From: Streptomyces sp. T12
GTDB taxonomy: Bacteria; Actinomycetota; Actinomycetes; Streptomycetales; Streptomycetaceae
Length of the DNA stretch: 64,000 nt
Direction of reading: 5' to 3'
Assembly: GCF_028736035.1 (NCBI RefSeq)
Contig: NZ_CP117866.1
Coordinates: 10,085,001 to 10,149,000, forward strand
Made by a program: the position numbers and the translations under genes. A model generated the notes under the pieces. It was not told where the DNA came from, searched no databases, and worked only from the letters and a program-made list of their open reading frames with translations. This document shows positions 8,839-30,834 of this stretch, one piece after another (positions within the stretch are counted from its first letter, which is position 1; every line of letters starts with the position of its first letter).

Positions 8839-10146
8839 TCAGCACATCGATGCCGCATTAGCTGTCACGTCATCGGAGTCGAATATCACGGCGGTATCAA
8901 CGTCTACATCCACAACGTCATGTACCGCGGGCGCTTGGACAGCGTCGTACACATCGTCAACGTCAACGACGACCGGACGGGAGGAAAGCCCGGGCTGATC
9001 CGTGAACCATTCGCCCACCAGGTCCATGACGTCGTGCAGAGCCGCCAGCGGAAAGTACTCAACCCCCCGGGTGGACAGCCATCCTTCCGTGTCGAGTCCG
9101 TCCAGGACGAACCTCTCCAGCGCTCTCGCCATACCGATGGGCAACCCTGTGATCCGTAGATGCTGCGCGGTCAGTCCGTCCTCGGCGTGCTGCCGGAGCC
9201 TGTTATAGCCGCCCCCGGAGCTGATGCCGGGCTTCACTGTGTCCTCGCCAGTCGCCGTGTCCAATCCGCTCACGACGTAGTACACGTCGTGGGGTGGGAC
9301 AGCGCCGCCGTACATCCCCGGGGGACATTGGGGGCAACCATGCTTCATCTTGTTCGGGATCAGGACGAACTCGTGCCCGGCGAAACAGACCGCCTGGTGG
9401 GGGCGTGACGCTGCTATCCACTGCGACTCGAGCACAGTGATGCCGAGGTCTTTGGCTCTCTCTGAGAGCTCCTCGAACTTGGCCAGCTTGTTGCAGGTGC
9501 CGCAGAAGTCTGGGCGGATGGCCTGACGCCCGTCCCAGCTGTCCACGTAGAACGAGTGCGAGTGGCCGCGACGGCATCTGACGTCGACGGCGTTGCGGTA
9601 CTCCTTCACCACGGTGGATCGAGTCTCACGGACGACCGCCTCGACTTTGGCGAACCCTTCCGCGTACGCAGCAGTTTTCCGACAGTCTGGGCACAAGGTG
9701 TCGACGGGCTCACGCCGCCAGGTCCTCGCGTGGGCCCCGGTTGTCTTGAAGTGGTGTCCCTTCGAGCACTTCGCCGCGAATACGACATGGCCGTCCCCGG
9801 ACTCGTCTTGCTCGTCCGTGGCGGTCAGTTCTATACCCTCGGTCTTAGCCACCGACTTCAAAACGGCCAAACACTCCGCAACCCAGCCGACGTTGCGGCA
9901 CTTCTTACACCACGGCTCGTTCGGGTCCATCCCGAAGGGCTTGCGGGTGGACAAGACGTCCCACGCGCGGACTGCGAATTCGTGACCGGCACTACACGTA
10001 ACATCCGTCCAGCCGACCAGGCTGCGCTCCTCGTCCAGCGTCCACGCCTGTCGTCGGCATGCCTGACGGAACAGGTCCATCAGTGCGTTGATGTGGACGG
10101 CGGCTTCCGTGCTCACGTCCGAGGGCTCCGGCTGGTTGCTCGTCAT
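8839..10146 (-). CDS. Four zinc ribbons fused to a GIY-YIG nuclease fold
   Basis: The start at 10146 is preferred because AAGGAGAGAG precedes it. Four repeated treble-clef-like zinc ribbons (C..GH.F, then a C..C pair) are visible: C51/C80-C83, C127/C152-C155, C191/C215-C218 and C254/C271-C274. The C-terminus (about 285-355) matches a GIY-YIG nuclease: VYYVV at 288-292, KPGIS at 305-309, the arginine at 316 and the glutamate at 344 (ARALERF). Such multi-ribbon plus GIY-YIG proteins occur in phages and mobile DNA; the ribbons probably bind DNA. The acidic Asp/Val-rich tail after residue 370 is unusual. Function unknown; it lies next to a resolvase remnant and cas3. Confidence 0.75.
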   Translation of the reverse strand: MTSNQPEPSDVSTEAAVHINALMDLFRQACRRQAWTLDEERSLVGWTDVTCSAGHEFAVRAWDVLSTRKPFGMDPNEPWCKKCRNVGWVAECLAVLKSVAKTEGIELTATDEQDESGDGHVVFAAKCSKGHHFKTTGAHARTWRREPVDTLCPDCRKTAAYAEGFAKVEAVVRETRSTVVKEYRNAVDVRCRRGHSHSFYVDSWDGRQAIRPDFCGTCNKLAKFEELSERAKDLGITVLESQWIAASRPHQAVCFAGHEFVLIPNKMKHGCPQCPPGMYGGAVPPHDVYYVVSGLDTATGEDTVKPGISSGGGYNRLRQHAEDGLTAQHLRITGLPIGMARALERFVLDGLDTEGWLSTRGVEYFPLAALHDVMDLVGEWFTDQPGLSSRPVVVDVDDVYDAVQAPAVHDVVDVDVDTAVIFDSDDVTANAASMC

Positions 10147-10172
10147 GCGGGTTTCTCTCTCCTTGTCCGTCA

Positions 10173-10262
10173 TCACGCGCGCTCCAGGTAGCGGTAGATG
10201 GTCGGTTCCCGAACACCGGCAATGGACCGTCCTCCGCTGCGGGTTTCTGCTACGAGGTGCGC
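10173..10262 (-). pseudogene. Remnant of a serine-resolvase C-terminal HTH
   Basis: The last 29 codons of a frame ending at 10173 read HLVAETRSGGRSIAGVREPTIYRYLERA. This matches the C-terminal helix-turn-helix of serine resolvases/invertases (pattern G.SI..IA..LGVSR.TVYRYL) with a three- to four-residue deletion in the turn. The rest of the recombinase is absent, so this is a scar of a lost mobile element directly downstream of cas3. Confidence 0.5.
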
Positions 10263-10323
10263 TGGCGCGGGCACAGGGTCGGCGGCTTGTCGGCCGGGTT
10301 GGCAAGCATCCGGCGGACGCGCC

Positions 10324-12603
10324 CTACTTGGGTGGCTCGATTCCTCGTTGCGGGTGATGGGGGCCGGTCCACTCGTACAGGTCACCGGCGATTTCGACCG
10401 CGTGACCGGCGCTGATCGCTGTCTCCAGTTCCTTGTGAGGGAGCGATGCCATGTGGTCCTGGAGGGCGCGGTAGGTCTCCGGGGTCGGCACTCCGCCGCG
10501 GAGTTGCCCGATGGCGTCCCGGGCGGCCTGCTGGTCCTCATGGGTGAGCTGGGAGCGGATGACGACGACGGCCACGGAGTGCTCGTTGTCGATCATGCGC
10601 ATTCTGCGGGCGACTTCCGGATAGTCCAGGTTCTCTCGCAGTGCCTCGATGACTTCTCCGGTGGCTCCGTCGGGATCCGTGGAGGAGCGTCCGGCCTGGA
10701 GCTGGTAGCGGTGCTGGTAGTAGGAGCGCAGGGTGTCCAGGTCGTCGGGGGCTGCCAGTTCCTTGCCGAAGCGGCGGGATGCTGCGGCGATGCCGGACCG
10801 GTTGTAGATCACTTGTGGCTGGAGTCCGTCGGTCGGTTCGAAGACGGTCAGGACGCTGTCTTCGGTTGGGCGGTGGCCTTCGCGGTTGATGCGTCCGGCG
10901 GCCTGCTGTTCGGACTCCGGCAGCGACCGGGCGCGGAATCCGTGCGGGAAGTCGAGGTCGACGCCGGCCTCGATCAACGACGTCGACACCAGCAGCGTGC
11001 CCAGGCCGGCCTCCAGGCGTTGTTTGGCCGTCTGGATGGTCTCCCGGCGGTGACCGCCGGTCATGCGGGTCGACAGGTGCAGCACGCCGGGACTCTCCCC
11101 GCGGCCGTCGAGCCACGTTTTGTGCACGTGGCGGGCATCCTTGGTGCCATTGACCACGACCAGGGCGTCGGTGTGCTCTGCAGCCTCGGCAGCGATGCTC
11201 CCAAGCGTCACGGCTGGGCCGGTGCGCCACTCGTACCGGACCCGGCGCAGTCGCTCGAACAGAGGTGCGGGGTTCGCGACGATCTCGCGCTGCGGCAGTC
11301 CGGTCTGCCAGGGGTTGAGCGCGGAGAGTTCCGGCTGGGTCGCCGAGGACAGCACCAGGGTCACGCCGTAGTGCTCCACGAGCTCGCGCAGCCCGGACAG
11401 GATGGGTGTCAGCAGGTTGTCGGGGAGGGCCTGGACCTCGTCCAGGACGAGGACGGAGTTCGCGATCCGGTGCAGTCGGCGGGTGGCCGAGGGGCTGTTG
11501 CCGAAGAGGCTCTCGACCAGGCGGACCGTGGTGGTCACGATGAACGGGGCGTCCCAGTTCTCCGCGGCCAGTTTCGCCCATGGGTTGGGGCGGTGGGACG
11601 TTTCGAAGGTCACGGCGGAGTGGTGTTCCAGGACCGTCCGCGGCCCGTGCTCGGAATCCAGCAGTCTGCGGTAGACCGCCGCGTTCTGTTCCGTGATCGA
11701 AATGAACGGGACCGCGACGATAACGCGCCGCAGCCCGTGCAGGGCGGCATGACGGAGCGCGAAGCCTCCCCCAGTGAACGTCTTTCCCGCACCGGTCGGC
11801 AGGTGCAGCCGGAAGACCCCGGGCTTGCCGGCGGCTGCCTCGACCGCCTCCCCGTAGATGTCCTCGCGGAGCCGGTCCAGCCATGAGGGAGCGCCGCGGC
11901 GTCGGCGCTCGGCAATCATCTCCCGGCGGCGGTTCTCGTACCGCTCCCACAACTCCGCCATGCTCACGGCCCTTTGGGGGTGCGTGCCGGGTCTGAAGTG
12001 GGCGGCGGTGTCGAGCCGGTCCGCGTCGACCACGGCCGAGTACGTCATGCGGACCAGCATCTCCACACTGGTCCGGTTGTGCGGGTCAAGCCAGTTGGGG
12101 GCAGCCGGACAGGTTCCGTCCAGGATCTCCGGCATGACCCTGGCGACGCGGCTGATCGCCTCGTCCACCTCTGCGGAGTCCCGCATCAGGGCCTTGAGCC
12201 GGACCTTGAGTTCCGACCAGGCGGGCAGGCCGGTGTGATGTCCCTCGATCACTCCGGCGAACGGTGTCAGCACCGGATGACGCCGGGCCGCCTGGGCGAA
12301 CAGGAACGCCCCGGCGTCATGGTGTGGAGGGCGGCGGACCTTGCGGCCGGTCGTGGCCTCCTCGATCAGCCCGTCCTGCCAGGCGCACGCGCCCTTACCG
12401 GTGTCGTGGTCACGTCCCAGTCGGCAGGCGAGGTCTCCGCCTCCCCAAACGTCGGCGAAGCCGCGGGCCAGCTCGCCGGTGCCGCGGGCGTGGTCTTCGT
12501 ACCAGTGCCAGACGCCCCGACGGCCGGGTGAGTGGGCCACGAGCCTGCCTTCCGGAACCGGCGCGGGCCCACTTAACGGGTCAACTACCTTGTCTTCAGG
12601 CAT
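10324..12603 (-). CDS. cas3: Cas3 helicase-nuclease, type I-C
   Basis: 759 residues from ATG 12603 (ribosome-binding site AGGAAG). The N-terminal HD nuclease keeps its metal ligands: H38, H66-D67 (RDHDTGK), HH at 94-95, the HHTGLP motif near 121-125 and a later Asp (VVDADRLD). The SF2 helicase follows with Walker A LPTGAGKT at 268-275, DEVQ at 388-391, SSAT at 419-422 and motif VI QQAAGRINR at 566-574. All catalytic motifs are intact, so the enzyme should unwind and degrade DNA recruited by Cascade. It is transcribed divergently from cas5-cas8c-cas7, whereas type I-C cas3 is normally first in the same operon. Confidence 0.96.
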   Translation of the reverse strand: MPEDKVVDPLSGPAPVPEGRLVAHSPGRRGVWHWYEDHARGTGELARGFADVWGGGDLACRLGRDHDTGKGACAWQDGLIEEATTGRKVRRPPHHDAGAFLFAQAARRHPVLTPFAGVIEGHHTGLPAWSELKVRLKALMRDSAEVDEAISRVARVMPEILDGTCPAAPNWLDPHNRTSVEMLVRMTYSAVVDADRLDTAAHFRPGTHPQRAVSMAELWERYENRRREMIAERRRRGAPSWLDRLREDIYGEAVEAAAGKPGVFRLHLPTGAGKTFTGGGFALRHAALHGLRRVIVAVPFISITEQNAAVYRRLLDSEHGPRTVLEHHSAVTFETSHRPNPWAKLAAENWDAPFIVTTTVRLVESLFGNSPSATRRLHRIANSVLVLDEVQALPDNLLTPILSGLRELVEHYGVTLVLSSATQPELSALNPWQTGLPQREIVANPAPLFERLRRVRYEWRTGPAVTLGSIAAEAAEHTDALVVVNGTKDARHVHKTWLDGRGESPGVLHLSTRMTGGHRRETIQTAKQRLEAGLGTLLVSTSLIEAGVDLDFPHGFRARSLPESEQQAAGRINREGHRPTEDSVLTVFEPTDGLQPQVIYNRSGIAAASRRFGKELAAPDDLDTLRSYYQHRYQLQAGRSSTDPDGATGEVIEALRENLDYPEVARRMRMIDNEHSVAVVVIRSQLTHEDQQAARDAIGQLRGGVPTPETYRALQDHMASLPHKELETAISAGHAVEIAGDLYEWTGPHHPQRGIEPPK

Positions 12604-12759
12604 ATTTGACTTCCTGTCGGTTATACGCTGAGATCCCAGCACACCATCACATTCACCGCGATCTGCCCTGCGTCTGTCGTGGATCGCGATGGCGCCACGA
12701 CGCTAGCGGCCAGCACTGACAACGGGCCGGTTCGGCCGGTGCATAAGGGAGGAAGACGC
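12604..12759. promoter_or_regulatory. Divergent promoter region between cas3 and cas5
   Basis: This 156-bp gap separates the cas3 start (12603) from the cas5 start (12760), so it must hold both promoters. It contains a self-complementary GGATCGCGATGG-type element and a GGCCGG-containing inverted repeat close to cas5. No clear -35/-10 pair could be assigned by eye. Confidence 0.5.
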
Positions 12760-13530
12760 ATGATGACGGGGCATAAGCGGCAGCGCGGGGAGAGGGCTGA
12801 CCGGCCCCTTTATGTGCAGGTGGAGGCGTGGGGCCCGCTGGCCTGCTTCACCCGCCCGGAACTCAAGGTCGAACGGGTTTCCTACCCGACCATGACCCCC
12901 TCGGCAGCACGCGGGCTGCTGGAGGCGATCCTGTGGAAGCCGGAAATCGCCTACCGCATCGAGCGGATCGAACAGCTCAAGCCGGTGCAGTGGACAACCT
13001 TCCGGCGCAACGAGGTCAACAACTCGGTCATTACCAAGAAGACCTACGAGGATCTGCGCGCCAACTCCGGCTACCGCTACGACGTCGCCGAGGACCGCGG
13101 GCAGCGCGTCACCGTCGCCTTGCGTGACGTCGCCTACCGCATCCACGCCACGATCAACGCCACCGACCGCTGCACCGCGCCGCTGCCGAAGTACCGCGAC
13201 CAGTTCGACCGCCGTCTCCAGCGGGGTGCCTGCTTTGAGCAACCCCACTTCGGCTGCCGCGAGTTCGCCGCCTTCTTCGGGCCCCGCGGATCAGCTGAGG
13301 GAGCCGGCGCCGTCACCCCCGCCGACCCGGCAGGCATCCCCCCGATCGACGAGATCGGACTGATGCTCCACCACATCGAGTACCTGCCCAAGGGCCAGGA
13401 GCGCTACCACTGGTTCCGCGCCCGCCTCGAACGCGGCGTCCTGCACGTCCCCGACCGCCCGCTCGATGCCGCCCAGGCGGACGGGATGCCCGGGGCCGAG
13501 GGACGTGCCTCTGCCGAAGGGGCGGCCTGA
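12760..13530 (+). CDS. cas5: Cas5c (Cas5d) crRNA endonuclease, type I-C
   Basis: 256 residues; ATG 12760 (or 12763) follows GGGAGGA. The RAMP-fold signature is clear: VERVSYPTMTPSAARGLLEA then WKPEIAYRIERI and FRRNEV. In type I-C, Cas5d replaces Cas6 and cuts the repeat with a Tyr/Lys/His triad. The Tyr is present (Y42) and the Lys is present (K144), but the position normally occupied by the adjacent His is Y145 (PLPKYRDQFDRR). The downstream GACFEQPHFGCREFAAFF block is typical. Last gene junction: stop one base before the cas8c GTG. Whether K-Y still cleaves is open. Confidence 0.94.
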   Translation: MMTGHKRQRGERADRPLYVQVEAWGPLACFTRPELKVERVSYPTMTPSAARGLLEAILWKPEIAYRIERIEQLKPVQWTTFRRNEVNNSVITKKTYEDLRANSGYRYDVAEDRGQRVTVALRDVAYRIHATINATDRCTAPLPKYRDQFDRRLQRGACFEQPHFGCREFAAFFGPRGSAEGAGAVTPADPAGIPPIDEIGLMLHHIEYLPKGQERYHWFRARLERGVLHVPDRPLDAAQADGMPGAEGRASAEGAA

Positions 13531-13531
13531 C

Positions 13532-15367
13532 GTGCTTCTGCACAGCCTCGTCCAGCACGCCGACAGCCGCGAGGACGCTGTCCCCGACTACTACCAGCGC
13601 CGCCCGGTCATGTGGCAGATCGACCTGTCCAGCAGCGGCGACAGCGAGCCGCTGATCATCGATCTGCGCCCCGCCAAGGGGGACAAGCCACGGCAGGTCA
13701 CCGCCCCCTACACCGGCCGCTCCGGTACGACCCCGCCGCCGTTCCTGCTCACCGACAGCGCACTGTACGTCCTGGCCCATCCCGGCCTGGTCAAGCAGCC
13801 GGATGGTGAGAAGGTTCCGTCGACCAGCCCGAAGGACATCACGAAGGCCCGGCAGCGGCACGCCGCCTACCGCGCGATGGTGACCTCTTGGTGCGACGAA
13901 CACCTCGGCCTTCCCCAGGCCCGCACCCTGGCCGCGTGGCTGGACAGCTACACGCCCGGCTGCTGGCCGGAGGGGATGGACCAGGCGCACCTCGTGGCCA
14001 TCAGCGTGGACGGCGCATGGATCCACGACCTGCCGCAAGCCCAAGACTGGTGGGCCCAGAAGGTCAAGAGCGCCAAGAGCGGGAAGCCGGGCAAGAGCCA
14101 GGAAGGCATCTGCCTCGTCTGCGGCGAGAGGGGATCCTTGCTGTCGACGCTCCCGGTGCCCGTCAAGGGTCTGCCCAACTCCGGGATGAACACGCAGCTG
14201 ATCTGCCTCAACCAGCCCGCCCACTACAGGGCCGGCATCAAGCAGCTCGGCGCCACCCCCGTCTGCGTGACGTGCGGAACCAAGGCCACCACCGCCCTGA
14301 ACACGCTGCTGGCTGACCCCGAGCACCGCACGTTCGCTGGCGACTCGGCCATTGTGTGGTGGACCCGCGACCCCGCCACCGAAACCGACATGTGGACCCT
14401 GGACAACCCCGACCCCACGGAGGTCGCCCAACTCATCGACGGGCTCAGCCACCCGCGCAAGGGACGCGATGCGCGGGCCGCCCTCGACGAGGACGCCTTC
14501 CACGCCGTCACCCTGAGGGTGAACACCAACCGGGTCATCGTCGCCGACTGGATCACCATCCCCGTCCCTGACCTCAAACAGCGGCTCGGAAGCTGGTTCG
14601 CCGACCAGCAGACCTGGGACGGCTGGACCGACACCTACCTCTACTGGTCGGTCTGGCGCCTAGCCCTGGCCGCCGCCCGCTGGGACAAGCGGAAAAACAA
14701 GTACATCGACACCACCGTCCCCGCACATCTACAAGCCGACCTGGCCAAAGCCGCACTCCACGGCACCCCACCGCCGGCCCACCTCCTGCCGGTCCTCATG
14801 CAGCGCATCCGCGCCGACCACCACATCGACCGACCCCGCATCGCGCTACTGCGCCTCGCTATGACCCGTACGACCACCCGTCACAAGGAGCTGTGCATGC
14901 CCCAGCTGAACATCACCTCGACTGAGCCCGGATATGTCTGCGGGCGGATCATGGCCATGCTCGAAGCAATCCAGCGCAAGGCCATGCCCAAGGTCAACAC
15001 CACCATCACCGACAAGTACCTCACCACCGCAGTGGTCTCGCCCCGAGCCGCCCTCACCCGGCTCCGCATCGGCGCACGCCCCCATCTGCGCACCATCGCC
15101 CGGACGAGCGAACCCGCGGCGAAGGCCATGGAAAACCGCATGCGGGAAGCCTTCGACCTGCTCGATACCCTCCCCGCCCACCTGAACGCCGAGCAGCAGG
15201 CCCTGTTCATCCTCGGCTACGAACACCAACGCGCCCACTCCGCACGAGCCGCCGCCGAAGCCATCAAGGCCCGGGAACTCGGCAAGGAACTCTCCGGCGA
15301 GCAGGCAGCCGACGCCCTCCCCGAAGCCGCCGAGGAAACCAGCAGCACGGACAGCACCCTCGGCTAA
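13532..15367 (+). CDS. cas8c: Cas8c (Csd1) Cascade large subunit, type I-C
   Basis: 611 residues from GTG 13532, one base after the cas5 stop, with AAGGGG upstream; the Csd1-type opening LLHSLVQHADSREDAVPDYYQRR supports this start. Two Cys pairs (CLVCGE and CVTCGT) and the segment ALNTLLADPEHRTFAGDSAIVWW match the Cas8c core. Cas8c recognises the PAM and recruits Cas3. In type I-C a Cas11 small subunit is usually translated from an internal start within the 3' part of this gene; methionine codons in the last third (for example near 14836-14896) are candidates. It belongs to the cas5-cas8c-cas7 operon. Confidence 0.94.
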   Translation: MLLHSLVQHADSREDAVPDYYQRRPVMWQIDLSSSGDSEPLIIDLRPAKGDKPRQVTAPYTGRSGTTPPPFLLTDSALYVLAHPGLVKQPDGEKVPSTSPKDITKARQRHAAYRAMVTSWCDEHLGLPQARTLAAWLDSYTPGCWPEGMDQAHLVAISVDGAWIHDLPQAQDWWAQKVKSAKSGKPGKSQEGICLVCGERGSLLSTLPVPVKGLPNSGMNTQLICLNQPAHYRAGIKQLGATPVCVTCGTKATTALNTLLADPEHRTFAGDSAIVWWTRDPATETDMWTLDNPDPTEVAQLIDGLSHPRKGRDARAALDEDAFHAVTLRVNTNRVIVADWITIPVPDLKQRLGSWFADQQTWDGWTDTYLYWSVWRLALAAARWDKRKNKYIDTTVPAHLQADLAKAALHGTPPPAHLLPVLMQRIRADHHIDRPRIALLRLAMTRTTTRHKELCMPQLNITSTEPGYVCGRIMAMLEAIQRKAMPKVNTTITDKYLTTAVVSPRAALTRLRIGARPHLRTIARTSEPAAKAMENRMREAFDLLDTLPAHLNAEQQALFILGYEHQRAHSARAAAEAIKARELGKELSGEQAADALPEAAEETSSTDSTLG

Positions 15368-15420
15368 GCCCCACCATCCCACAACCACACCACCAGACAC
15401 GGAAGGACACCAACGCAGCT

Positions 15421-16290
15421 ATGACCGCCGCACACCTGGACCCCACCCGCAAGCACGACTACGTCTTCCTCATCGACGTCAAGGACGGCAACCCCAACGG
15501 CGACCCCGACGCTGGCGGCATGCCCCGCATCGACCCCATCACCAGCCAAGGCTTCATCACCGACGTCGCCCTCAAGCGAAAGATCCGCAACGCCATCACC
15601 CTCGCCCACCAAGGCCAGCCCGGCTTCGAGATGTACGTCGAGGAGGGCGTCGCCCTCAACCCGCAGATCCAGCGCGCCTACCACGACGGCGGCGCCAAGG
15701 AAGGCGAGACCGCCACCGCCCAGCAGTGGATGATCCGCAACTTCTACGACGTTCGCCTTTTCGGCGCCGTCATGTCCGTCGGCGACCAGAAGAAGCACGC
15801 CGGCAAGGCCCGCGGCCCTATGCAGCTCACCTTCTCCCGCTCCATCGACCCCGTCACCCCGCTCGAGGCTGGCATCACCCGCGTCGCCCCCAACAAGCCC
15901 GAAGACATCGCCAACGGCAAGGTCACCGAGATGGGCAACAAGCACTACGTGCCCTACGGCCTCTATCGCGGCCACGGCTTCTACTCCGGAGCCCTCGGCG
16001 CAAAGGCCGGCGTCACTTCTGAAGACCTGGCCGCCTACTGGCAGGCCATGACCATGATGTTCGACCACGACCGGGCAGCCTCCCGAGGCGAGATGGCTAT
16101 CCGCGGCCTGTACGTCTTCTCCCACGACGACGCGTACGGGCGAGTCCCCGCTCACAAGCTGTTCGACCGGATTCGCGTCAAGCCGCTGGGCCACAGCGAG
16201 GCACGATCCTGGGACGAATACGCCGACCGGATCACTGTCGACCAGGACGGAATGCCCGAGGGCGTATCCCTCACCAGCCTGATCGATTGA
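15421..16290 (+). CDS. cas7: Cas7c (Csd2) Cascade backbone subunit
   Basis: 289 residues with the Csd2 hallmarks HDYVFLIDVKDGNPNGDPD near the N-terminus, GGMPRIDPITSQGFITDVALKRKIRN, and the later FYSGALGAKAGVTSEDL and GEMAIRGLYVF segments. Cas7 multimerises along the crRNA spacer. It lies 53 bp after cas8c on the same strand with GGAAGGA upstream. The usual next genes of a type I-C locus (cas4, cas1, cas2) are missing: the CRISPR array begins only about 100 bp after its stop. Confidence 0.96.
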   Translation: MTAAHLDPTRKHDYVFLIDVKDGNPNGDPDAGGMPRIDPITSQGFITDVALKRKIRNAITLAHQGQPGFEMYVEEGVALNPQIQRAYHDGGAKEGETATAQQWMIRNFYDVRLFGAVMSVGDQKKHAGKARGPMQLTFSRSIDPVTPLEAGITRVAPNKPEDIANGKVTEMGNKHYVPYGLYRGHGFYSGALGAKAGVTSEDLAAYWQAMTMMFDHDRAASRGEMAIRGLYVFSHDDAYGRVPAHKLFDRIRVKPLGHSEARSWDEYADRITVDQDGMPEGVSLTSLID

Positions 16291-16391
16291 TGCTGATCCT
16301 GAATCACAACATCGGCTGACGCACCCCACCGCCGCGAATAGCAGCTAAGCGCAACTCCTGAGAGTTTCGACGGAATTTGGGTAGCCGCGTT
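16291..16391 (+). promoter_or_regulatory. Possible CRISPR leader between cas7 and first repeat
   Basis: About 100 bp lie between the cas7 stop and the first repeat, noticeably more A/T-rich than the surroundings (for example AGAGTTTCGACGGAATTTGG just before the repeat). By orientation it would be the leader side, but the first repeats are as diverged as the rest, so it shows no sign of recent spacer addition. Array transcription may also continue from the cas operon. Confidence 0.45.
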
Positions 16392-19300
16392 GTAGTGGTC
16401 GCTCCGCCGGGCGCCCGAGAATCGCAACCACTCCGGCCGGTTGTGCGGCGAGGGCCCGTATCCGCGTGGCGGTCGTCCTCCGGGCGGCCGAGGATCGCAA
16501 TCGGATGTTCGAGCCGCACGAAATCGGCCGGGCAATGGTGGCGGTCGCCCTTCAGGACGGCCGGGGATCACGACTGCACGGTTGTGTGGGACATGTGCTG
16601 GTGGTTGACCTGCGGCGATCGCCGTGCGGGGCGGCCGAGGATCGCAACGTCGTTGACGACAACGCCGACTCATACCCGAAGATAGTGACGGTCGCCCTCT
16701 GCGGCGCCCGAGGATCGCAACCAGTACGGGATCGCTCCCGTGAGATCGAGGGCGGGCGGTCGCCTTCCGGGGCGATCGAAGATCGCAACATGGCCGCGAT
16801 CCCGTGTGGACCGAGCCGACGTGGCGGTCGTCTTCAGGGCCAAGGGCCGCAACCTCGGACTCCACCGACCGATCTCATTCCTCGACGGCATGGCGGTCCC
16901 CCGCCGGGACGACCGAGGATCGAAACCACTTCGGCCAGATGGCGCTGAAGACGGGCACGTTGTGGCGGTCGTCCTCCGGGGCTGCCGAGGATCGCAACAT
17001 CTGGGTCGAGAAGCGGAACTTGCCGACCTCGACGGTGGTGGTCGCCTTCGGGCGACAGAGAACCGCAACAACTTGCCCGCCACGAACAGCCCGCCGCGCT
17101 GGATAGAGCTGTTCGTGACCATGGTTCCCCACCCGGGCGTGGCGGTCGCCTTCCAAGGCGACCGAGGATCGCAACTACGGATCCAAGCCCCACACGCTGA
17201 GCGGGGTGACCTTGGCGGTCGCTTTCCGGGGGTGACCGAGGGATCACAATGCCGTGGCACCGTGACTGTACACGCGGCGGAGGCGTGCGGTTAGCCTTCG
17301 GGGCGACCGAGAATCGCAACATCGAAGACGCCACACCCGACGAGATCGCCCGCGGTGGCGGCGGCTCCTTGGGACGACCGAGAATCGCAACTACATGGTC
17401 GCCGGGTCGATCTGGACGGTCGGCAAGGTGGCGGTCGCCGCCCTCCGGGTGATGGAGGGGCGCAACTCCTCGACGTCCAGGCTGTACAGGACGGGGAACA
17501 CGTGGCGGTCGCACTCCGGGCGGACCGAGGATCGCGACCGGTACTGCCGGAGGCACCAAAGGGCCCCGACTCGGGTGGCGGCCGCCCTTCCGGGCGACCG
17601 AGGATCGCAACGACTACCTCGTGACGCGAGGCAAGGTCGGCATGCTGGTAACGGTCGCCCTTGAGGCGGCCGAGGATCGCAACACCGAGTCCTTCGAGGA
17701 CTACTGCACCCGCATCAGGTGGCGGTTGCCTTCGGGGCGACCGAGGATCGCAACACGTAGACCGGGCCTACTCACCGCGTGTAGACCTGGTGACGGTCGT
17801 CTTTCGGGGCATCCGAGGATTGCAGCAATGGGCAGGACCGGCACACTGCCATCCAGCTCATCGTGGTGGTTGTCGTTCGGAGCGACCGAGGATCGCAACT
17901 GGGTGCCGGTGGTCTGCGCCGAGGCGAGGAAGCTGGTGGCGGTCTCCCTTTGGGGCGACCGAGGATCGCAACATCGGTGACGTACCGGTCCACTGGGCCG
18001 GGCTCCTGTGGCAGTCGGCCTCCGGGGAGACCGAGGATCGCAACGACATGGTGGCCTCGTCGACCACTAGGACGTCGACGCGTGGCGGTCGTCCTCCAGG
18101 GTGACCGAGGTTCGCAACTGGGACTGGGTCTGGACGCTCGAAGACCTCGGAACGTGGCGGTCGCTCTCCGGGACGACCGAGAATCGCAACGGGTACCTCG
18201 CCCCCTGCTCGTGGCGGTCGCCCCCCGGGGCGTCCGAGGATCGCAACACCCACCATCTCGACCTGACGCTGATCGGCGAGACTCGTGGCGGTCGCCCTCC
18301 AGTTCGGCCGAGGAGCGTAACGACCTCCGCCTGCACCCACCCGGACACCTGTACCTGTGGCGGTTGGCCTCCGGGGCGACCGAGGGTCGCAACAACCAGC
18401 TCGTCGCGGCGCAGGCCACCGAGGCCAAAGTGGTAGTCGTCCTCCGGGGTGGCCGAGGATCGCAACTTCATTGAGCGGCATGTCCGCCGGCAGTGGGTCG
18501 ACGTGGCGGTCGCCCTCCGGGGCGATCGAGGATCGCAACGCCGAGAAGCGCCTCCACATGGAGTCCCCCTCCACGGTGGCGGTCGCCTTCCGGGGCGACC
18601 GAGGATCGCAACTTCGGGGTGTCGCAGTCACGGAGCCGGGGCTACTGGGTGGCGGTGGCCCTTCGGGGCGACCGAGGATCGCAACAACGACCGGCTGTAC
18701 ATCCGCGCCGAGATCGAGACGTGGCGGTCGCCCTGCTAGGCGACCGAGGTTCGCAGCGTCAACTACATCTGGCCGGCGAACGGCGACCCGAAGGTGTCGG
18801 TTGCTCTCCGGGGCGACCGAGGATCGCAACGACGACACGGTCACTCCCGGCGGCGGCTCGGTGGCGGTCGCCCTCCGGGGCGATCGAGGATCGCAACCGC
18901 ACCTCGCGGTACGGGACGAGGAGGTCGTCGCGGTGGCGGTCGCCCTCTGGGGTGACCGAGTATCGCAACACCGCCATGGGTGTGGCCATGATCGACATGG
19001 TGGAAGTGCCGGTCGCCCGGCGGGGCGGTCGAGGATCGCAACTGCTCATCAAGCGAGACACGCCCGTAGCTCACGCAGTGGCGGTCGTCCTCCGGGGCGA
19101 CTGAGGATCGCAACAAAGAGGTCCACCGCCTGGTCGACGGGCTTACGCAGCGGTCGCCTGCCGGGGCGATCGAGGTTCGCAACGTGTAGTACCAGTCGCC
19201 TTTGCCGCAGTAGACCCGCGTGGCGGTTGCCCTCTGGGGCGTCCGAGGTTCGCAACGCCCGAGAGCGGGTGGTGTGGGCGGCCCGGCACGGGGTGGCGGT

Positions 19301-21266
19301 CGCGCTCCGGGGCGTCCGAGGATCGCAACTACCTCAACCCTGAACACGAGACCTTTCTGTGGCGTGTGGCGGTCGCCCTTCGGGGTGGCCGAGGATCGCA
19401 ACCTGCCGGTCACGGACGAAGTGTTCGAGGATGAGGCGGTGGCGGTCGCCCTCCGGTGTGACTGAGGATTACAACAAGGCCGCAGTCGATGGCCTCGTCG
19501 ACGCGGGCCTGTGGCGGTCGCCCTCCGGGGTGACCGTGGATCGCAACACGGCGGCCGGGCTCGGCACGCGCCGTGTCCCACCGGTGGCTGTCGCCCTCCG
19601 GTGCGACCGAGATTGCAACATCTCGATGTCCCCCGGGTCGGGACGCCCCTCCGAGGGGTGGCGGTCGCCCTCTGAGGCGACTGAGGATCGCAACGGGGTG
19701 CCCGGCACCGGCTTGGCCGGCGCGGGGAAGTGGCGGTCGCCCTCCGAGGCGACCGAGGATCGCAACAGCGACGGCTCCAGGATGTCCGTCGTGTTCAGGC
19801 CGGTGGTGGTCGCCCTCTGGGGCAACCGAGGATCGCAACCTGACTCTCCCTCGCACACGCCTCTCCAGGAGACGCCCGTGGCGGTCGTCCTCTGGGGCGA
19901 CCGAGGATCGCAACGGCGTACTGTTCTGAGTGTCTAGTCCAGAACGGAGTGTGGCGGTCGCCCTCCGAGTGACCGAGGATCGCAACGTCAATCCCAAGGG
20001 TGGTGCGACCACCACCACGCTAGTGGCGGACGTCTTCCGGGGTGACAGAGGATCGCAACATCACGCGGCGGGCACCACGCACGCCGTTCCCGACGAGGCG
20101 GCGGTCGCCCTCCGGTGCGGCCGAGGATCGCAACATCGTGTCGTCGCTCTGCAGCATCATGGCATTGAGGGTGGGGTCGCCTTCCGGGGCTACCGCGGAT
20201 CGCAACGACGCCGCGCTGCGACGCTGGGCTGCCGAACGCCCCGTGGCGGTCGTCCTTCGGGTGACCGAGGATCGCAACTGCATGAGTTCCATGTCGCTCA
20301 TCTCCAACGACGCGAGTGGCGGTTGCCCTCCGGGGTGACCGAGGATCGCAACTTCTTGGTCTTCGCGCTGAAGTAGACGTACACGTACGTGGCGGTCGCC
20401 CTCCAAGGCGACCGAGGATCGCAACGATTGCAGCTCGCTGGTTCAGTACGCGTACCGGCCGTGGCGGTCGTCCTCCGGGGCAGCCGAGGATCACAACTGG
20501 TTTGTCGTCCTCGACGGCGACAACTTCCAGCGGGGTGGCGGTTACCCTCCGGGGCGACCAAGGAGCCCAATGTCTGCACCCTGGGTTACCGCTACGCAGG
20601 CGACGACGTGGCGGTGGACCTCCGGGGCGACCGAGGATCACAACACGGTGGCGGGCAACGACGCTAGGCGCCGGATCCGGGTGGCGGTCGCTCTGCGGGG
20701 TGACCGAGGATCGCAACGAGATGACCCAAGAGGAGTGGGTCACCATGCAGGTCGGTGGCGGTCGTCCTCCGCGACGACCTGAGGATCGCAACTGCACGAC
20801 GAGAACGGCGAGCCGGGCGGCGACCTAGTGGCGGTTGTCTGCCAGGGTGACCGAGGATCGCAATGTGATACTCCAGAGCTACCATCAGGTCGTGCGGGCG
20901 TGGCGGTCGCTTTCCGGGGTGACCGAGGATCGCAACTATGCCGTTGGGACATGCCGAGCGCCCCCGCTCCGGAGTGGCGGTCGCCCTCCGGGGTGACCGA
21001 GGATGGCAACGGCGCGTCCCGGGTGGAACCGGTGACGGCCCTGGTGTGGCGGTCGCCCTTCCGGGCGATCGAGAATCGCAACTATGTCTTCAAACGACCC
21101 GCGGCGTACGCGGGCTTGTGGCGGTCGCCTTCAGGGTCGGCCGAGGATCGCAACCTTGAAAACTGGATAGCGAATCTGATTGGCAGTCGGGTGGCGGTTG
21201 CCCTCTGAGGCGACCGAGGATCACAACACCGAGAAGATGCCGACCTCGGCGAGGCGGGCGAGGTCT

Positions 21267-21291
21267 GTGGCGGGCGATCGAGGATCGCAAC
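21267..21291 (+). repeat. Internally deleted CRISPR repeat (25 bp)
   Basis: This copy reads GTGGCGGG followed by CGATCGAGGATCGCAAC, so the 5' arm and loop are lost while both ends of the repeat remain. The encoded pre-crRNA could not form the normal hairpin here, so the neighbouring crRNAs may be fused or unprocessed. Deletion between the two arms of the palindrome is the simplest origin. Confidence 0.75.
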
Positions 21292-22620
21292 TCCGGTTTG
21301 AGGACGCGCATGCCGATGAACGCGGCGAGTGGCGGTCGCCCTCCGGGGCGGCCGAGGATCGCAACCTCGCGCTGGAGCCGACCGGCCTGGTCGTGCCTAG
21401 TGCCGGTCGCCCTCCGGGGCCGAGGATCGCAATGACTGGGTCGGCGACCTCGACGACACCGTCGCCCTGGGCGGCGGTCGTCCTTCGGGGTGACCGAGGA
21501 TCGCAACACCTTCTTCATCAGCCAACAGTCGGAGCGGGCCTTCGAGGTGGTCGGTAGTCCTCCGGGGCGACCGAGTTCAACAAGGCTCCTCCGCTCAGCA
21601 CCGCGCAGAAGTCCGAAGTGGCGGTCGTCTTGCGGGGCGGCCGAGGATCGCAATTACGAACAGGTCCACATTCGCTACAACGGCTCCGAGATGGTGGCTG
21701 GCCTCCGGGGCGACCGAGGATCGCAACTCGGTCGGCAACGGCCAGATACACGCAGTCTGCGGCCGTGGCGATCGCCCTCCGGGGCAACCGAGGATCGCGA
21801 CTTCGAGCCGAGCACGCTTTCGCCGGCTGCGACCATTGTGGCGGTCGCCCTCCGGGGCAACTGAGGATCGCAACACCGCGTCCGGGGCGTGCGCCCTGCT
21901 CGGACCCGTGGTGGCGGTCGCCCTCTGGGGCAACCGAGGATCGCAACATGCCCTCCGCCATCTCCAGCACGCCGCGCTGCATGGTGGCGGTCGCCTTTCG
22001 GGGCGGCCGAGGATCGCAACGGGATGATCGGAGCCGGGAAGGTCTTCGAGGCCCTCGTGGCGGGCGCCGTCCGGGGCGACCGAGGATCGCAACCCCGTCA
22101 CGCCGAAGGTCCTGGCGGAGGGCCCGATCGTGGCGGTCACCCTCCAGGGCGACCGAGGGTCGCAACATGAAGTCGCGGCTCTCCGAAGCGGCGTCCGACA
22201 GCGTGGCGGTCGCCCTCCTGGACGACTGAGGATCGCAACGGCACGGGTGTGCTGGCGCACTTCGGGCTGTGGAAGGTGGCGGTCGTTCTCCGGGGCGACC
22301 GAGGATCGCAAGGGGTCGCCGACCCGCAGCACCACGTCATAGGCACGAGTGGCGGTCACCCTTCGGGGTGACCGAGGATCGAACCACCTGTACGGGCCGG
22401 GGGCAGGCGAACGAGCACGAGGGTGGCGGCCGTTGACAGGCGACCGGGGATCGCAACATCAAGCGGTGGGCGCACGAGCGGATCCGCGCCGAGGTGGCGG
22501 TCGCCCTGCTGGGACACCGACTACGAACACGCTGAGATCAGTGCGGTCTCCCTCCGAAGGACCGAGGATCGCAACACGTCCGAGGAGATCCTCGGAGCCG
22601 ACGGCCCCCAGGTGGCGGTC

Positions 22621-22714
22621 TTGCGATCCTCGGTCACCCTGGAGGGCGACCGCCACCCGGGCACCCAGCACGCACATCGCGAGCGGTGCCTCGTTGCGAT
22701 CCCCGGTCGCCCCC
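22621..22714 (-). repeat. Inverted repeat-spacer block inside the CRISPR array
   Basis: After GTGGCGGTC at 22612-22620 the sequence continues with a complete repeat in reverse orientation (22621-22656, starting TTGCGATCCTCGG and ending CGACCGCCAC). A 36-bp spacer follows (22657-22692), then the reverse complement of the 3' part of another repeat (from 22693, GTTGCGATCCCCGGTCGCCCC). Forward repeat sequence resumes at 22715. Breakpoints lie in the palindromic stems of two repeats, so this is a roughly 94-bp inversion. Confidence 0.85.
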
Positions 22715-24175
22715 GAGGGCCCCTCCGGGTTGACCGAGGATCGCACCGACGTGTGCACGCTCTTGCCATCCCCCTCCACCTCGGTGGCGGTTGCCCTCCA
22801 GGGCGACCGAGTATCGCAACCGCACGGCCGGCATCGCGGCCGCCCGCGGCCTGCTGGTGGCGGTCGCCCTCCTGGGCGACTGAGGATCGCAACAGCGCGG
22901 GCGAGGAGCCGTTCCGGGACGGGACGCTGGTGGCGGTTGCCCTTCGGGGCGACCGAGTATCGCAACACCGAAGAGGGCTGGATGGTGCAAGCGCTGCCCG
23001 GTGGCGGTCGCTCTCCGGGGCGATCGAGGATCGCAACAACTCGTAGGATCAGGAGGTGGCGGAGGACGACGAGTGTGGCGGTTGCTCTCCGGGGCGACCG
23101 AGGTTCGCAACGTTGAGAACTTGGCGCGCGAACCAGTGCGCCCTGGGGTGGCGGTCGCCCGCGGAGTGACCGAGACTCGCAACGAGTGGTGTTTGTCGGG
23201 ATGCCATCTCCCCCTCACAAGGAGGCGGTCGATCTCCGGCGGTGGTGGCGTCGTGGGGCGGTTGCCCTCCGGGGCGACCGAGGATCGCAACGTCAAGCAC
23301 TTCATCCGGCCGGAGCAGGTAGCCGAGGCGTGGCGGTCGTCTTTCGGGGTGACCGAGGATCGCAACATGTACGGCAGGGCAACGATCGGCAGACCCAGGT
23401 AGAGCGGCAGTCGCCCCCCCGGGGATGACCGAGGATCGCAGCACCGAGGACGGCGAGTACATCCGCACCGAGTACCGGGTGGCGGTCGCCTTCCAAGGCG
23501 TCTGAGGGTCGCAACGGATCCAACCGGTCCACCAGCATCAGCAGACGGCAAGAGTGGCGGTCGTCCTCCGGGACGACCGAGGATCGCAACACGTCCACCG
23601 GACAGCCCAGGCATCCGCTGTACGTGCTGGCGGTTGCCCTCTGGGGTAAGCGAGGATCATAACAGCTCACACTGGCCGTGGATGCGAGCGCCGAGCTTGA
23701 GGTGGCGGTCGCCCTCCGGGTGACCGAGGATCGCAACGGTGCGCTCATGCGGCAGCTGCACGTCTGGTTCGGGTGGCGGTCGCCCTTCGGGGCGACCGAG
23801 GATCGCAACTTCGCGACGTTCACCGCCGTGGCGATCGCATGGGACGTGGCGGTCGTCCTTCGGGGCGACCGAGGATCGCAACCGCGTCATCGCGAACGTC
23901 ACCGACCCTGGCGCGCCGTGGCGATCGCCCTCCGAGGTGACTGAGGATCACAACAGCATGACCTGCAGAGTGTCGTTGCCCCCGAGCTCGTGTGGCGGTC
24001 GCTTTCTGGGCGACCGAGAATCGCAACCACGACGACGAACGGGCCCTGGAGTACTGGGAGGACGGTGGTGGTCACCCTCCGGGACGACCGAGGATCTCAA
24101 CGTCGAACACGGCACCCGGCAGGTCGATCGTCACGGCCATGGCCGTCGCCCTCTGGGGCGACCGAGGATCGCAAC

Positions 24176-25272
24176 GGGTTCGCGCGCGACGTGCCGAACA
24201 GTGGCGGTTCCGGGCGGTGTGCTGTACGGCTGGGCTGTACGGCTGTCGCACAAATAGGCCGGACACGACGTGCGGGTCCGCGCCAGGACGTCATGGTTTG
24301 TCGTTGGGCAGCAGCCACGCGTGTCGCCCAGTTTCGGGAACGCTTCTCGGCCGCTGTGTCGGCGAATTGTGGCAACACCCCCGTCCGCTGTGGTCCTGCG
24401 CAGCTCAGAGGCGTTGACGGTACTGACCGACATCGAACTCCGGCATCCGCGGCGTTGTCGGCTGTCAGCGACGAACGTTGCCGGGATCCGCCGACATACT
24501 CAGACGTCATCCACAGCGACGCCGCCCACCGCATCGCCTTCTTCGGCATCGTCCCCGACTCAGACGCTGTCGGACGTGACCTCCGGGACGGCTCAACGCA
24601 TAGGTCTGGGGAAGATCTGATGAAGCGTCTGATCGCGTTGGTCACGTGCTGGCCACGTTGGTCACGAAAATCGCGCATCGTTACAGGTCAGACCCGCAAG
24701 CCCGGGAGACGGCCGGGGCCGCCACCCCTGGCCTGATAGAAGCGTAAAGGGCCTCTGACCTGGCATTTTGTTGTCCGGTCGTAAGTTCGCGCTTCCTGTC
24801 TAGGCTGACCCTCATCTAGGTGTTTCTGCCTGTTCCTGACCGCTACTGGTCACGCGCTGGTCACGTGTCCACCGTCGGGGCGGCCCCTGCGGGCTGTTGC
24901 GGCAGAAGCGGGCATCTCGCTGATGGGACGGCCCGCGTGGAGGTCGAGGACCACGTCATGCAGGACGCGCAAACATACAGGTCGAATGGGGTCTGACTCT
25001 TCGGGGTCAGGCCCCTTGAGCTTTACTGCGGTGGGTAGGTGCTGGACTGTCTGACCTCTCGTCATCTGCCGTCAGCCCCGATACCCGTACCGTGCTGGAT
25101 TCGTGCCGGATGCTGACGAATCGCGCGGGCACCTCGGGCGTGCGTGCCATTCGGGAGGGCTGTTAACCCAGTCGATCAGGCTTCCAGCACACGTTCTTCA
25201 CGCGATTACTGCCCGTTGCGGAAACAAATCTCCACCTGCCCGGCGTTGTCGATCTCCGATGCGATAACGGGG
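24176..25272. other. 1.1 kb array-distal region without a convincing gene
   Basis: Begins with a 25-bp partial spacer and a truncated repeat (GTGGCGGTTCCGGGCGG at 24201-24217), the worn end of the array. After that, no open frame has plausible composition, ribosome-binding site or motif; the frames 23990-24736 (plus) and 24097-24678 (minus) are shadow-like. A few short stretches such as TYSDVIHSDAAHRIAFFG (plus strand near 24500) look protein-like and might be a decayed gene. Confidence 0.5.
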
Positions 25273-28435: not shown

Positions 28436-29563
28436 CTATCGGGTTGCTCGTGTGGACCGGGCGGTGTGCGCGACCGTGGTGGTCGGCGGTCCGGCGCGGG
28501 TGGTGGGCGCAGGCAGCTGCTGCTGTGGCGGGGTGGCTCCGGTGGCGTGCTGCCAGCGGGTGCGGACGGCGCCGATGTCGGCGAGGGAGCGGCGGGCGCC
28601 GACGACGAGTTGGAACGGTGTGTTCGCTGGGTCGCTGGCGTACGCCTCGATGCGCCGCCCGGTGTGTTCGGCGGTAGCCAGGAGGGAACGCCGCAGGGCG
28701 CGCTCGCCCCAGTGCTCCACGGAACCAGCCGGTTCCGCCAGCATGCGGAGCACCTCGCCCGGTGCACTGCCGTCGTCCAGCAGGCCGCGCTGTTGGGCTT
28801 CCCACAGGACGGTGACGGGGTCGACGGGCTCGTGGCGGCGGGCCAGGGCGGTCAGGCACTGCCACAGGCCGGCGTGCAAGGGCAGGGTGAGGTCGTCGGG
28901 GAGCAGCCACGGGACGGACTCGATATCGGATGGGTGGGCGGTGGCGGTCGCGAGCAGCAGTTGCTCCTCCTCGACCGCCTCGGTGTAGTCGGGCGCGATC
29001 GCTGGCGGCGGTGCCGCGGTGCGGGGCAGCACTCCGGCGCGCGGCGGGAAACGGCTCGCGATGTCGTCCACAACTGCGGCGAGCGCGTCGGCCGTGGCGA
29101 GCACCGTCTGGACGGGGTGCGGCAGAGAGGCGTCGTGGACGGTGTGGACGAGGCGTTCGGCGGCCGTCTGCAGACGGCGGCGGGCGTGTTCGGCCTCGAC
29201 CATCCGTGCGTAGGCCGGTGCGTGGCGAGGCCAGGGGCAGACCTGGACGAGGGTGTGCAGGTACGAGGCGGTCAGTCCGCGCGCCTGCTCGCGCCCTGTG
29301 GCGAGCACGTGGTTGAGCCAGTTGGTGTTCTTCGCATGCTCGGCGGGGTCGGGCGGCGGCAGGGTGCTGATCGCGGCGAACAGGGCGGAGTGCGCGGCGG
29401 TGGAGAACGAGTTGGCGGCGATGCCGCTCACGTCGTCAAGGCGGTGCGGATCGAGGAGGAGGGCCCCGAGGAGGGCCTGCTCGGCGTAGCGCACGGGCAG
29501 TGGGGGATGGGTATCGGGCAGGTCGTCGAGGTCGTCTTCGTCGGGTTCGGGATCGTGGGGCAT
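28436..29563 (-). CDS. Protein with two DnaB N-terminal-type domains
   Basis: 375 residues from ATG 29563. Two helical regions resemble the DnaB N-terminal domain: residues 24-120 (YAEQALLGALLLDPHRLDDV then FSTAAHSALFAAI and NWLNHVLATG) and 200-300 (EEEQLLLATATAHPSDIESV then LHAGLWQCLTALARRHEPVD). No Walker motif follows, so it is not a helicase itself; it may interact with DnaG primase or the host DnaB. The stop/start overlap (TGATG at 29563) couples it to the cytosine methyltransferase upstream. Common in Streptomyces plasmids and conjugative elements. Confidence 0.75.
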   Translation of the reverse strand: MPHDPEPDEDDLDDLPDTHPPLPVRYAEQALLGALLLDPHRLDDVSGIAANSFSTAAHSALFAAISTLPPPDPAEHAKNTNWLNHVLATGREQARGLTASYLHTLVQVCPWPRHAPAYARMVEAEHARRRLQTAAERLVHTVHDASLPHPVQTVLATADALAAVVDDIASRFPPRAGVLPRTAAPPPAIAPDYTEAVEEEQLLLATATAHPSDIESVPWLLPDDLTLPLHAGLWQCLTALARRHEPVDPVTVLWEAQQRGLLDDGSAPGEVLRMLAEPAGSVEHWGERALRRSLLATAEHTGRRIEAYASDPANTPFQLVVGARRSLADIGAVRTRWQHATGATPPQQQLPAPTTRAGPPTTTVAHTARSTRATR

Positions 29564-30834
29564 CAGGCGGCGAGGGTGAAGTCGTCGGGGGCGAGGGTGA
29601 CGCCGAGGTGCGGGGCGAGGAGGTGGCCTGCGAGCAGCGGGGGCACGGCGTTGCCGATCTGCGAGAACTGCTGGCCTTTGTTGCCGGCCCAGGGGTAGTC
29701 GGCGGGGAAGGTCTGCAGGATCCCGGCCTCGCGGGCGGTGATCCGGATCGGCTCCGGCACCGCTGGCACGTCCGTGTCCTCCGCTGGTGCCGAGGCCGGT
29801 TCGGCGACCCAGGTGCACTCGTTCGCGCGGTGTCCGAAGAAGAGCGTGCCCGCTGGCTCCTGGATGGACCGGATGGTGGCATTAGCCTGGTTGTTGCTCC
29901 GCAACGACCAGGACCAGCGGTGGTCCCCGGCGGTGAACGCCGGCGCCGGAGCGGTGTCAGAGCGGTCCTCACGTGCGCCGTGCCGGGCCGCCCGTCCAGC
30001 TCCTTCGCGGCGGGACGGCCGGTCGACGCCGTCCGGCCGGGGCATCCAGGTGCCGCGCTCCCGGGCGTCGGACAGCGTCTTGCGGGAGCCCGACGGGAAC
30101 GGTTCGGGACCGCCGCCGGGACCGCCCCCGGCGCAGACGGTAGGGACGGGCCGGTCGGTCGCGCCCCAGCCCAGGGCCTCGGCCATACTCACCCAACGGG
30201 CACGGCCCGGCCCAAACAGCGACTCCGGCTCGGCGACTTGGGAGTGCGTGGGCGGGGGAGGCTGTGCCGTACGGACCCGGGAGGCGAGGAGGATCGCCCT
30301 TCTCCTGGTCTGCGGGACGCCGAAGTCGGCGGCGTTGAGGATGCCGTACCAGACGGAGAATCCCCATCCGCGAAGGACGGCCGCGTACTGCTTCCACAGG
30401 GGCAGGACGTCCGGCACCTCCTCCATGGCGACCCAGTCGGGCTCGCCGACCGTGTTGAGGGCATGCAGGTAGCGCATCGGCTCGGCTGCGAGCAGGGAGC
30501 GCTCGTCGCGGCACGCGGCGAGGAGGCGTTCACGGGTGTCGCGTCCGGCAGCCAGGTCCTCGACCGCCGCGTGCACCAGCGGCTGGTCGAGCAGGCCGAG
30601 GCGTTTGCCGGCCATGCTCCACGCCTGACACGGCGGGGACGCGATCAGCCCGCGCGTGCGGCCGATGAACGGCCACGTCGGATACCTCGCCACGTCGGTC
30701 CGGACCGTCAACTGCCCAGCAGCGATACGGGTTTTGCACGCCCACGGGTCCCATTCCAGACCGATGTCGCGCACGCCGAGGACGCCCAGTGCTCGGCTCC
30801 AGCCGCCCGGCCCCGCGAAGAGGTCGAGTATCAC
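29563..30834 (-). CDS. DNA (cytosine-5) methyltransferase
   Basis: 423 residues. Motif I is DLFAGPGG (4-11), motif IV is SPPCQAWS with the catalytic C69, motif VI is MEEVP (138-140, with Glu in place of the usual Asn of ENV), motif VIII is QTRRRAILLAS (175-185), and motif X near the C-terminus is QIGNAVPPLLAGHLL. The variable region between VIII and IX is long (target recognition). No cognate endonuclease lies next to it, so it is an orphan methyltransferase, plausibly protecting element DNA against host restriction. It overlaps the PP-loop gene (30831-30834, ATGA). Confidence 0.92.
   Translation of the reverse strand: MILDLFAGPGGWSRALGVLGVRDIGLEWDPWACKTRIAAGQLTVRTDVARYPTWPFIGRTRGLIASPPCQAWSMAGKRLGLLDQPLVHAAVEDLAAGRDTRERLLAACRDERSLLAAEPMRYLHALNTVGEPDWVAMEEVPDVLPLWKQYAAVLRGWGFSVWYGILNAADFGVPQTRRRAILLASRVRTAQPPPPTHSQVAEPESLFGPGRARWVSMAEALGWGATDRPVPTVCAGGGPGGGPEPFPSGSRKTLSDARERGTWMPRPDGVDRPSRREGAGRAARHGAREDRSDTAPAPAFTAGDHRWSWSLRSNNQANATIRSIQEPAGTLFFGHRANECTWVAEPASAPAEDTDVPAVPEPIRITAREAGILQTFPADYPWAGNKGQQFSQIGNAVPPLLAGHLLAPHLGVTLAPDDFTLAA

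Follow-up and report, generated by a model that had tools for sequence, protein, structure and literature searches.

A Streptomyces type I-C CRISPR effector lineage without adaptation genes and with very likely retained interference

Type I-C loci of clustered regularly interspaced short palindromic repeats (CRISPR) with the adaptation genes cas4-cas1-cas2 are found on S. rutgersensis and S. cyaneofuscatus plasmids and in Actinomadura sp. WMMA1423. Loss of adaptation is already known for CRISPR systems and is common on plasmids; the available part of PMC9071438 gives adaptation modules for 36% of plasmid-encoded and 88% of chromosomal systems. For the I-C system on the pKLC102 island of P. aeruginosa, with the protospacer adjacent motif (PAM) TTC, some lineages have a frameshifted cas1, and spacers still differ between strains (PMC7913775, available part). 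Minimal I-E variants of Streptomyces are without cas1/cas2 and either lack cas3 or carry tnsB/tnsC (PMC12231136, available part). The locus of Streptomyces sp. T12 examined here is a further variant. It lies in the window, i.e. the whole analysed stretch of 64,000 nucleotides (positions 10,085,001-10,149,000 of an 11.36-Mb contig; the second contig of the genome has 104 kb), and consists of cas3, cas5c, cas8c, cas7 and a long repeat array.

The effector families are those of the adaptation-bearing I-C loci, and the 37-nt repeat consensus, GTGGCGGTCGCCCTCCGGGGCGACCGAGGATCGCAAC, is the same in several Streptomyces loci of this kind. In contrast, the adaptation-bearing loci keep cas4-cas1-cas2 and, in Streptomyces, a conserved leader; their leader-side repeats are mostly uniform and their cas3 runs in the same direction as cas5. 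The plasmid systems of PMC9071438 are likewise without adaptation genes, whereas a deep clade with fusion of cas7 to the array and with repeat ageing along the whole array, as found here, is not described in the available part of that paper. In P. aeruginosa cas1 is present but broken in some lineages (PMC7913775, available part); here cas4-cas1-cas2 and the leader are gone. The minimal I-E variants also lost adaptation (PMC12231136, available part), but the present locus has an I-C interference set with cas3. Neither an adaptation-less I-C clade of Streptomyces nor array-wide repeat ageing was described in the titles and abstract beginnings searched, subscription papers and preprints lying outside this search.

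We consider it very probable that this lineage lost cas4-cas1-cas2 together with the leader, that the array was fused to the cas operon and that interference was kept. A deletion would have removed the adaptation genes and the array leader together, and through this loss the array would have been joined to the end of the cas5-cas8-cas7 operon. New invaders would no longer be recorded by the usual route. The array would very likely be read through from the cas operon and cut by Cas5c into CRISPR RNAs (crRNAs), and these very likely guide Cas3 to conjugative plasmids and plasmid-prophages whose target sites carry TTC as 5' PAM. We infer deletion, read-through transcription, crRNA production and interference from features visible in the sequence, namely the absence of genes and leader, the array beside cas7, aged repeats, plasmid matches with PAM, purifying selection on the cas genes and uneven change along the repeat. 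The locus comprises:

10324-12642, minus strand: cas3 (HD nuclease and helicase), TIGR01596 53.5 bits (cut-off 43.45)
12679-13530, plus strand: cas5c, pre-crRNA processing subunit, start codon uncertain, TIGR01876 119.9 bits (cut-off 85)
13466-15367, plus strand: cas8c/csd1, large subunit, start codon uncertain, TIGR01863 246.6 bits (cut-off 218.65), PF09709
15421-16290, plus strand: cas7/csd2, backbone subunit, TIGR02589 262.4 bits (cut-off 182.25), PF05107
16291-16391, plus strand: probable eroded repeat remnants from cas7 to the first clear repeat, without leader (by eye)
16392-24176, plus strand: CRISPR array of about 106 units, 37-nt degenerate repeat, spacers mostly 35-37 nt
22620-22730, minus strand: two inverted repeats within the array

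The four genes and the array named in the preliminary description were verified by curated family matches. The type I-C signature proteins Cas5c, Cas8c and Cas7 score above the cut-offs, and Cas5c matches the structures 3vzi, 3kg4 and 8dex. Cas3 was recognized by its HD domain and by alignment of residues 47-705 with the solved Cas3 chain 8zns, but its helicase core remained below the cut-off (TIGR01587, cas3_core, 85.3 vs. 102.45 bits). As a whole, the effector set still looks intact. The layout had to be corrected: cas3 reads leftward, away from cas5c-cas8c-cas7, which read rightward into the array.

No Pfam match for Cas1, Cas2 or Cas4 was obtained in the whole two-contig genome of 11.46 Mb, and tblastn with Cas4, Cas1 and Cas2 of Actinomadura found no relative in the window. 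The reported absence of these genes at the locus was confirmed in this way, and no set encoded in trans was detected in this genome; loci with cas4-cas1-cas2 and the identical consensus repeat do exist on other Streptomyces plasmids (in L140, 21 of 21 repeats equal the window consensus). Because the module was found neither in the window nor in the genome, the locus is an I-C effector lineage and not a complete I-C system.

Cas7 matches (E 0.001) occurred in 11 of 392 Streptomyces genomes, in five cases with an identity of 89-100%. With the results of a scan of named genomes and the plasmid pETH1 added, this survey yielded 14 loci which form one clade (clade A, 100% support) in a tree of Cas5, Cas8 and Cas7 that does not include L103 and L144. 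All loci of the tree that have adaptation genes fall outside clade A. By tblastn, adaptation genes were not found at 13 clade A loci (window, L106, L003-L012 and L027; some on short contigs), and the annotation of L121 lists none in 1-40135. Of the 13 whole genomes of the clade, nine gave no match for Cas1, 11 none for Cas2 and 12 none for Cas4. On the other branch at least three further losses occurred (L107; L138 with L143; L142), those on the plasmids L138, L143 and L142 being called by annotation. A plasmid origin of the clade A locus is likely, since one locus lies on a linear plasmid of 107 kb and another on a replicon of 2.8 Mb that is recorded as a plasmid.

The claim that the effector genes were retained was supported by the substitution pattern. 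Median ratios of nonsynonymous to synonymous divergence (dN/dS; pairs with dS below 0.02 excluded) among the 14 loci were 0.21 for cas3, 0.18 for cas5, 0.28 for cas8 and 0.17 for cas7. The best tblastn piece of each cas gene contains no stop codon, and dS reaches about 0.6 among the gene pairs listed. Judged from these values, the clade A cas genes are under purifying selection.

Thirteen arrays of eight Cas1-bearing Streptomyces loci share a leader, which in most cases starts with CTTCGGAACC and ends just before the first repeat. It had no match at the cas7-array junction of the window or in 11 cas3-side arrays of clade A (E 1e-3). When up to 2 mismatches were allowed, the leader motif was located in two of the 13 clade A genomes, G419 and G420, and in none of the other 11, to which the one studied here belongs. 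The left array of L138 keeps the leader although this locus is without cas1. L138, from a plasmid of Streptomyces anulatus NBC 01641, also carries I-E genes beside its I-C genes. In several clade A loci a truncated repeat follows directly on the cas7 stop codon (by eye, clearest in L011, L006, L005, L008, L004, L007 and L010), and L107 from the other branch has a comparable fusion. In the window the first clear repeat begins at 16392, 100 bp behind cas7. Repeat-like 3' ends were seen by eye in this gap at 16310 and 16355, the latter followed by a 36-nt spacer. Because of these ends and the fusions of the relatives, the gap is probably an eroded part of the array. The loss of the adaptation genes also took the leader, similar fusions being seen in other species, and most likely came about by deletion, one of the two origins formerly proposed.

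For the array, 104 repeats on the plus and two on the minus strand were counted in one search and 105 on the plus strand with a looser limit; the former figure of about 108 differs from these by no more than the calling error. A correction to the preliminary description concerns the repeats, which are highly non-uniform: 104 of 105 are distinct, their mean pairwise divergence is 21%, and tandem-repeat finding recovered just fragments of the array. Neither end has a run of near-identical repeats, in agreement with the array having been called free of signs of growth. Ten Cas1-bearing loci with cas4-cas1-cas2 served for comparison (Streptomyces genomes, L108-L110; Streptomyces plasmids, L137, L139, L140, L141 and L145; Actinomadura, L013 and L014). 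In at least one array of each of these loci, 57-100% of the units carry the commonest repeat. This share never exceeds 20% in 16 loci without adaptation genes found (arrays of at least 10 units; L010, L103, L142 and L144 have arrays too short for this comparison, and for L138 and L143 the absence of the genes rests on annotation of the stretch fetched). Most Cas1-bearing arrays are flat at the leader side and degenerate only at the far end; without Cas1 the whole array resembles this far end. In the cas7-side arrays of clade A the mean number of mismatches per repeat ranges from 4.3 (window, L004) to 8.2 (L011). Twelve loci have both arrays, and in 10 of them the cas3-side array is the less degenerate one, L012 and L106 being the exceptions and L006 a near tie. 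Repeats with more than 10 mismatches to the consensus were dropped for covariation, those with more than 12 for position counts. Hits below 7 bits or arrays below 3 units were dropped in the uniformity analysis, hits below 5 bits or arrays below 5 units in the analysis of array age and sharing, and in both also hits without a same-strand neighbour. In L137, a S. californicus plasmid locus which keeps cas4-cas1-cas2, cas8c is interrupted by an IS5-family transposase gene (13184-14001).

The other origin formerly proposed, a locus working with a fixed set of spacers, does not agree with their decay. In the closest pair, L005 and L008 with 28 shared spacers, the spacers differ by 3.4%, the flanking repeats by 3.6% and fourfold degenerate cas sites by 5.2%. 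Because spacers and repeats thus change at the same, near-neutral rate, the spacer memory decays almost neutrally. In seven other pairs (at least 4 shared spacers; pairs with fewer were left out) the divergence is 2.1-11.6% for spacers and 4.7-24.2% for flanking repeats; repeats differ more in six of the seven, perhaps from rearranged neighbours. Change along the repeat is uneven. In the window C sites are changed in 5.4% of cases in the 3' handle compared with 19.7% in stem and loop (p 6e-10), and G in 8.6% in the stem compared with 18.9% in the loop (p 0.005). Stem and loop C do not differ (p 0.54); a C-to-T change in the stem keeps a G-U pair. Where units are common to several species, the rate of change is lower in the handle than in the spacers (0.051 vs. 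0.076, p 7e-4; repeat pairs with more than 6 differences excluded from the handle and seed analysis). Two further signals were not used: the excess of stem covariation in other species, with 56 compensated double changes where 35 were expected, is exaggerated by common descent, and a lower change of the seed in shared spacers (0.056 at positions 1-8 vs. 0.094 beyond 20) may be an end effect of the repeat boundary.

The spacers still point to plasmids. After masking of the repeats, a search with 100 spacers of the window gave matches in 53 plasmid records, of which 52 are from Streptomyces; among the 40 of these 53 that were listed, 16 spacers are involved and 13 match end to end. Among the genes targeted are those for MobL and MobF relaxases, an NlpC/P60 protein and a helicase. 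Of 15 targets, 10 have TTC on the 5' side of the match (8 as aligned and 2 after a one-base shift to the spacer boundary), two have TTG and three have other triplets; the 15 comprise 14 of the 16 tabulated plasmid-matching spacers and one phage record (ZL12). This is the TTC PAM reported for I-C (PMC7913775, PMC12231136, available parts). For the whole array 45 phage records were matched, ZL12 having the best E-value among the 40 listed. Full-length matches with 0-1 mismatch were obtained for four of the 100 spacers, whose flanking repeats carry 2-11 mismatches:

16999-17034, plus strand: spacer matching plasmid pSTRVI01, 35/36, TTC PAM
19257-19292, plus strand: spacer matching plasmid pSHJG2, 35/36, TTC PAM
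22094-22129, plus strand: spacer matching a plasmid of Streptomyces sp. NBC_01750, 35/36, TTC PAM
22458-22493, plus strand: spacer matching a MobL relaxase gene, 36/36, TTC PAM, flanked by two very degenerate repeats

These matches were not taken as proof of recent acquisition, as they concern 4 of 100 spacers and the hits were selected for closeness. Compared with the window, the Cas1-bearing L108 and L110 (99 spacers) matched 89 plasmid records, L107 and L004 (90 spacers) 158, L106 and L003 (79 spacers) 62 and the most degenerate arrays, L011 and L012 (93 spacers), 11; such counts depend on how common a target is, and the low number for the most degenerate arrays is the only informative difference. 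Queries for L106 with L003 and L107 with L004 were limited to 28-44 nt. At 95% identity or more remain 27 of 89 records for the Cas1-bearing controls, 14 of 53 for the window, 16 of 62 for L106 and L003 (with hits to their own replicon and to a CRISPR array counted), 23 of 158 for L107 and L004 and one of 11 for L011 and L012. The matches of this last group lie at 80-95%, except for the one at 100%, which is another CRISPR array; it is the sole group standing out, and a steady fall of matches with repeat age was therefore rejected. In the strain itself, its 104-kb contig (L104, G000:C2:40413-40448) matches the spacer at 22167 in 32 of 36 positions; the PAM is GTC, and the mismatches fall on positions 6, 7, 14 and 25.

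Some observations weigh against a loss of adaptation followed by continued interference. Pfam models could miss very divergent proteins, and some Cas1 occurs elsewhere in four of the 13 clade A whole genomes (G334, G153, G419, G421), so that adaptation in trans may be possible there. By eye, the fusion can be recognized clearly in only part of the clade, and in the window it is eroded. The distal arrays of the Cas1-bearing L141 are heterogeneous (modal share 0.11 and 0.15), and a leader-bearing array of G420 is fairly uniform, though no Cas1 was found in G420 and its cas2 is truncated; a strict rule that Cas1 goes with uniform repeats was rejected for these two cases. Handle constraint was not seen at G sites (p 0.15), stem covariation in the window was not above shuffles (5 compensated double changes vs. 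6.2 expected), and a mutational hot spot in the repeat hairpin could be part of the cause of the uneven change.

The alternative that survives best is a refreshment of the arrays by homologous recombination between arrays of different replicons, without Cas1, which we regard as possible though doubtful. Clade A loci have 140 same-strand spacer matches compared with one opposite-strand match as control, shared spacers being about 76-100% identical (spacers of 25-46, 20-50 or 28-46 nt were kept, depending on the sharing analysis). One window spacer has relatives in the arrays of four other species:

16502-16537, plus strand: spacer with relatives in L006, L007, L008 and L027

Some shared spacers lie in opposite arrays (L003|6762|+ with L007|4275|-; L005|3711|- with L012|10954|+), and L009 carries, beside its own clade A array, a young array with a leader and a broken cas3 of the other branch (clade B). 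Together with the less degenerate cas3-side arrays described above, these findings fit recombination between arrays. Sharing across species and in opposite arrays hints at occasional exchange by recombination. However, plain descent can explain most matches, L005 and L008 alone supplying 30 of the 140, and in several matches between species, inspected by eye as coding sequence, most differences fall on third codon positions, a pattern compatible with independent captures from related genes that preceded the loss. Recombination is held as a rival and not as a finding because sharing between clades A and B is no higher than the control (4 vs. 3). Differing cas7-proximal spacers, named before as evidence against a halted array, were found between many species; by eye, the second such spacer is common to L005, L006, L008 and L011, which would not be expected from growth at the leader end. 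That Cas1-based learning was given up and that memory is now renewed solely by recombination and by array units exchanged horizontally is a tentative idea. Under such updating the lineage would, equally tentatively, be an inherited, slowly decaying gene family across many species and not an adaptive memory.

Adaptation in trans, by which cas4-cas1-cas2 of co-resident clade B plasmids would occasionally add spacers, is unlikely. It would draw on the exact consensus repeat common to these plasmids, the varying array ages within clade A and the four window spacers with close plasmid matches beside aged repeats. Against it stand the lack of Cas1 in this genome, the unmatched clade B leader at the window junction and in the 11 cas3-side arrays, and the missing run of near-identical repeats at the array ends.

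Slightly less probable still is a dead relic in which the cas genes are merely slow to decay. The near-neutral decay of repeats and spacers and the 11 plasmid records matched by L011 and L012 are in its favour, but 14 loci with open cas genes at the dN/dS and dS given above, the handle constraint and the TTC-flanked targets argue against it. Fixed CRISPR arrays can be co-opted, but a domesticated regulator aimed at the host's own genes is very improbable here, since the best own-genome match outside the array is the one on the strain's own plasmid described above, without TTC and with mismatches at positions 6 and 7, and the next covers 26 of 28 bases (among 40 of 97 candidates scored).

If adaptation was lost as we propose, the clade offers a natural experiment on the fate of a CRISPR array after acquisition stops: nearly all repeats become distinct, spacers decay at a similar rate, and the most degenerate arrays retain hardly any target match. 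Repeat divergence could thereby serve to date the loss of adaptation, in the manner of a clock. Confirmed interference would show that effectors can be kept by selection long after learning ends, and the question would arise how memory is renewed, for which an "unknown mechanism" is named for P. aeruginosa I-C in the available part of PMC7913775.

About 175 kb from the locus, in L103 (7187-9743; G000:C1:10272186-10274742), a second cas3, 88-94% identical to that of the window and split over reading frames, is followed by three degenerate repeats and represents the relic of another locus of the clade. Right after cas3 the window encodes a 488-aa protein (8842-10305) without Pfam or NCBIfam match, at the place of a second array in relatives. 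Two adjacent genes of Mrr-type restriction endonucleases (PF04471) and then a TetR-like regulator lie at 3699-6017. At 28439-30834, on the minus strand, genes for a DnaB-like helicase N-terminal domain and a C-5 cytosine methylase are perhaps part of a mobile element beside the locus.

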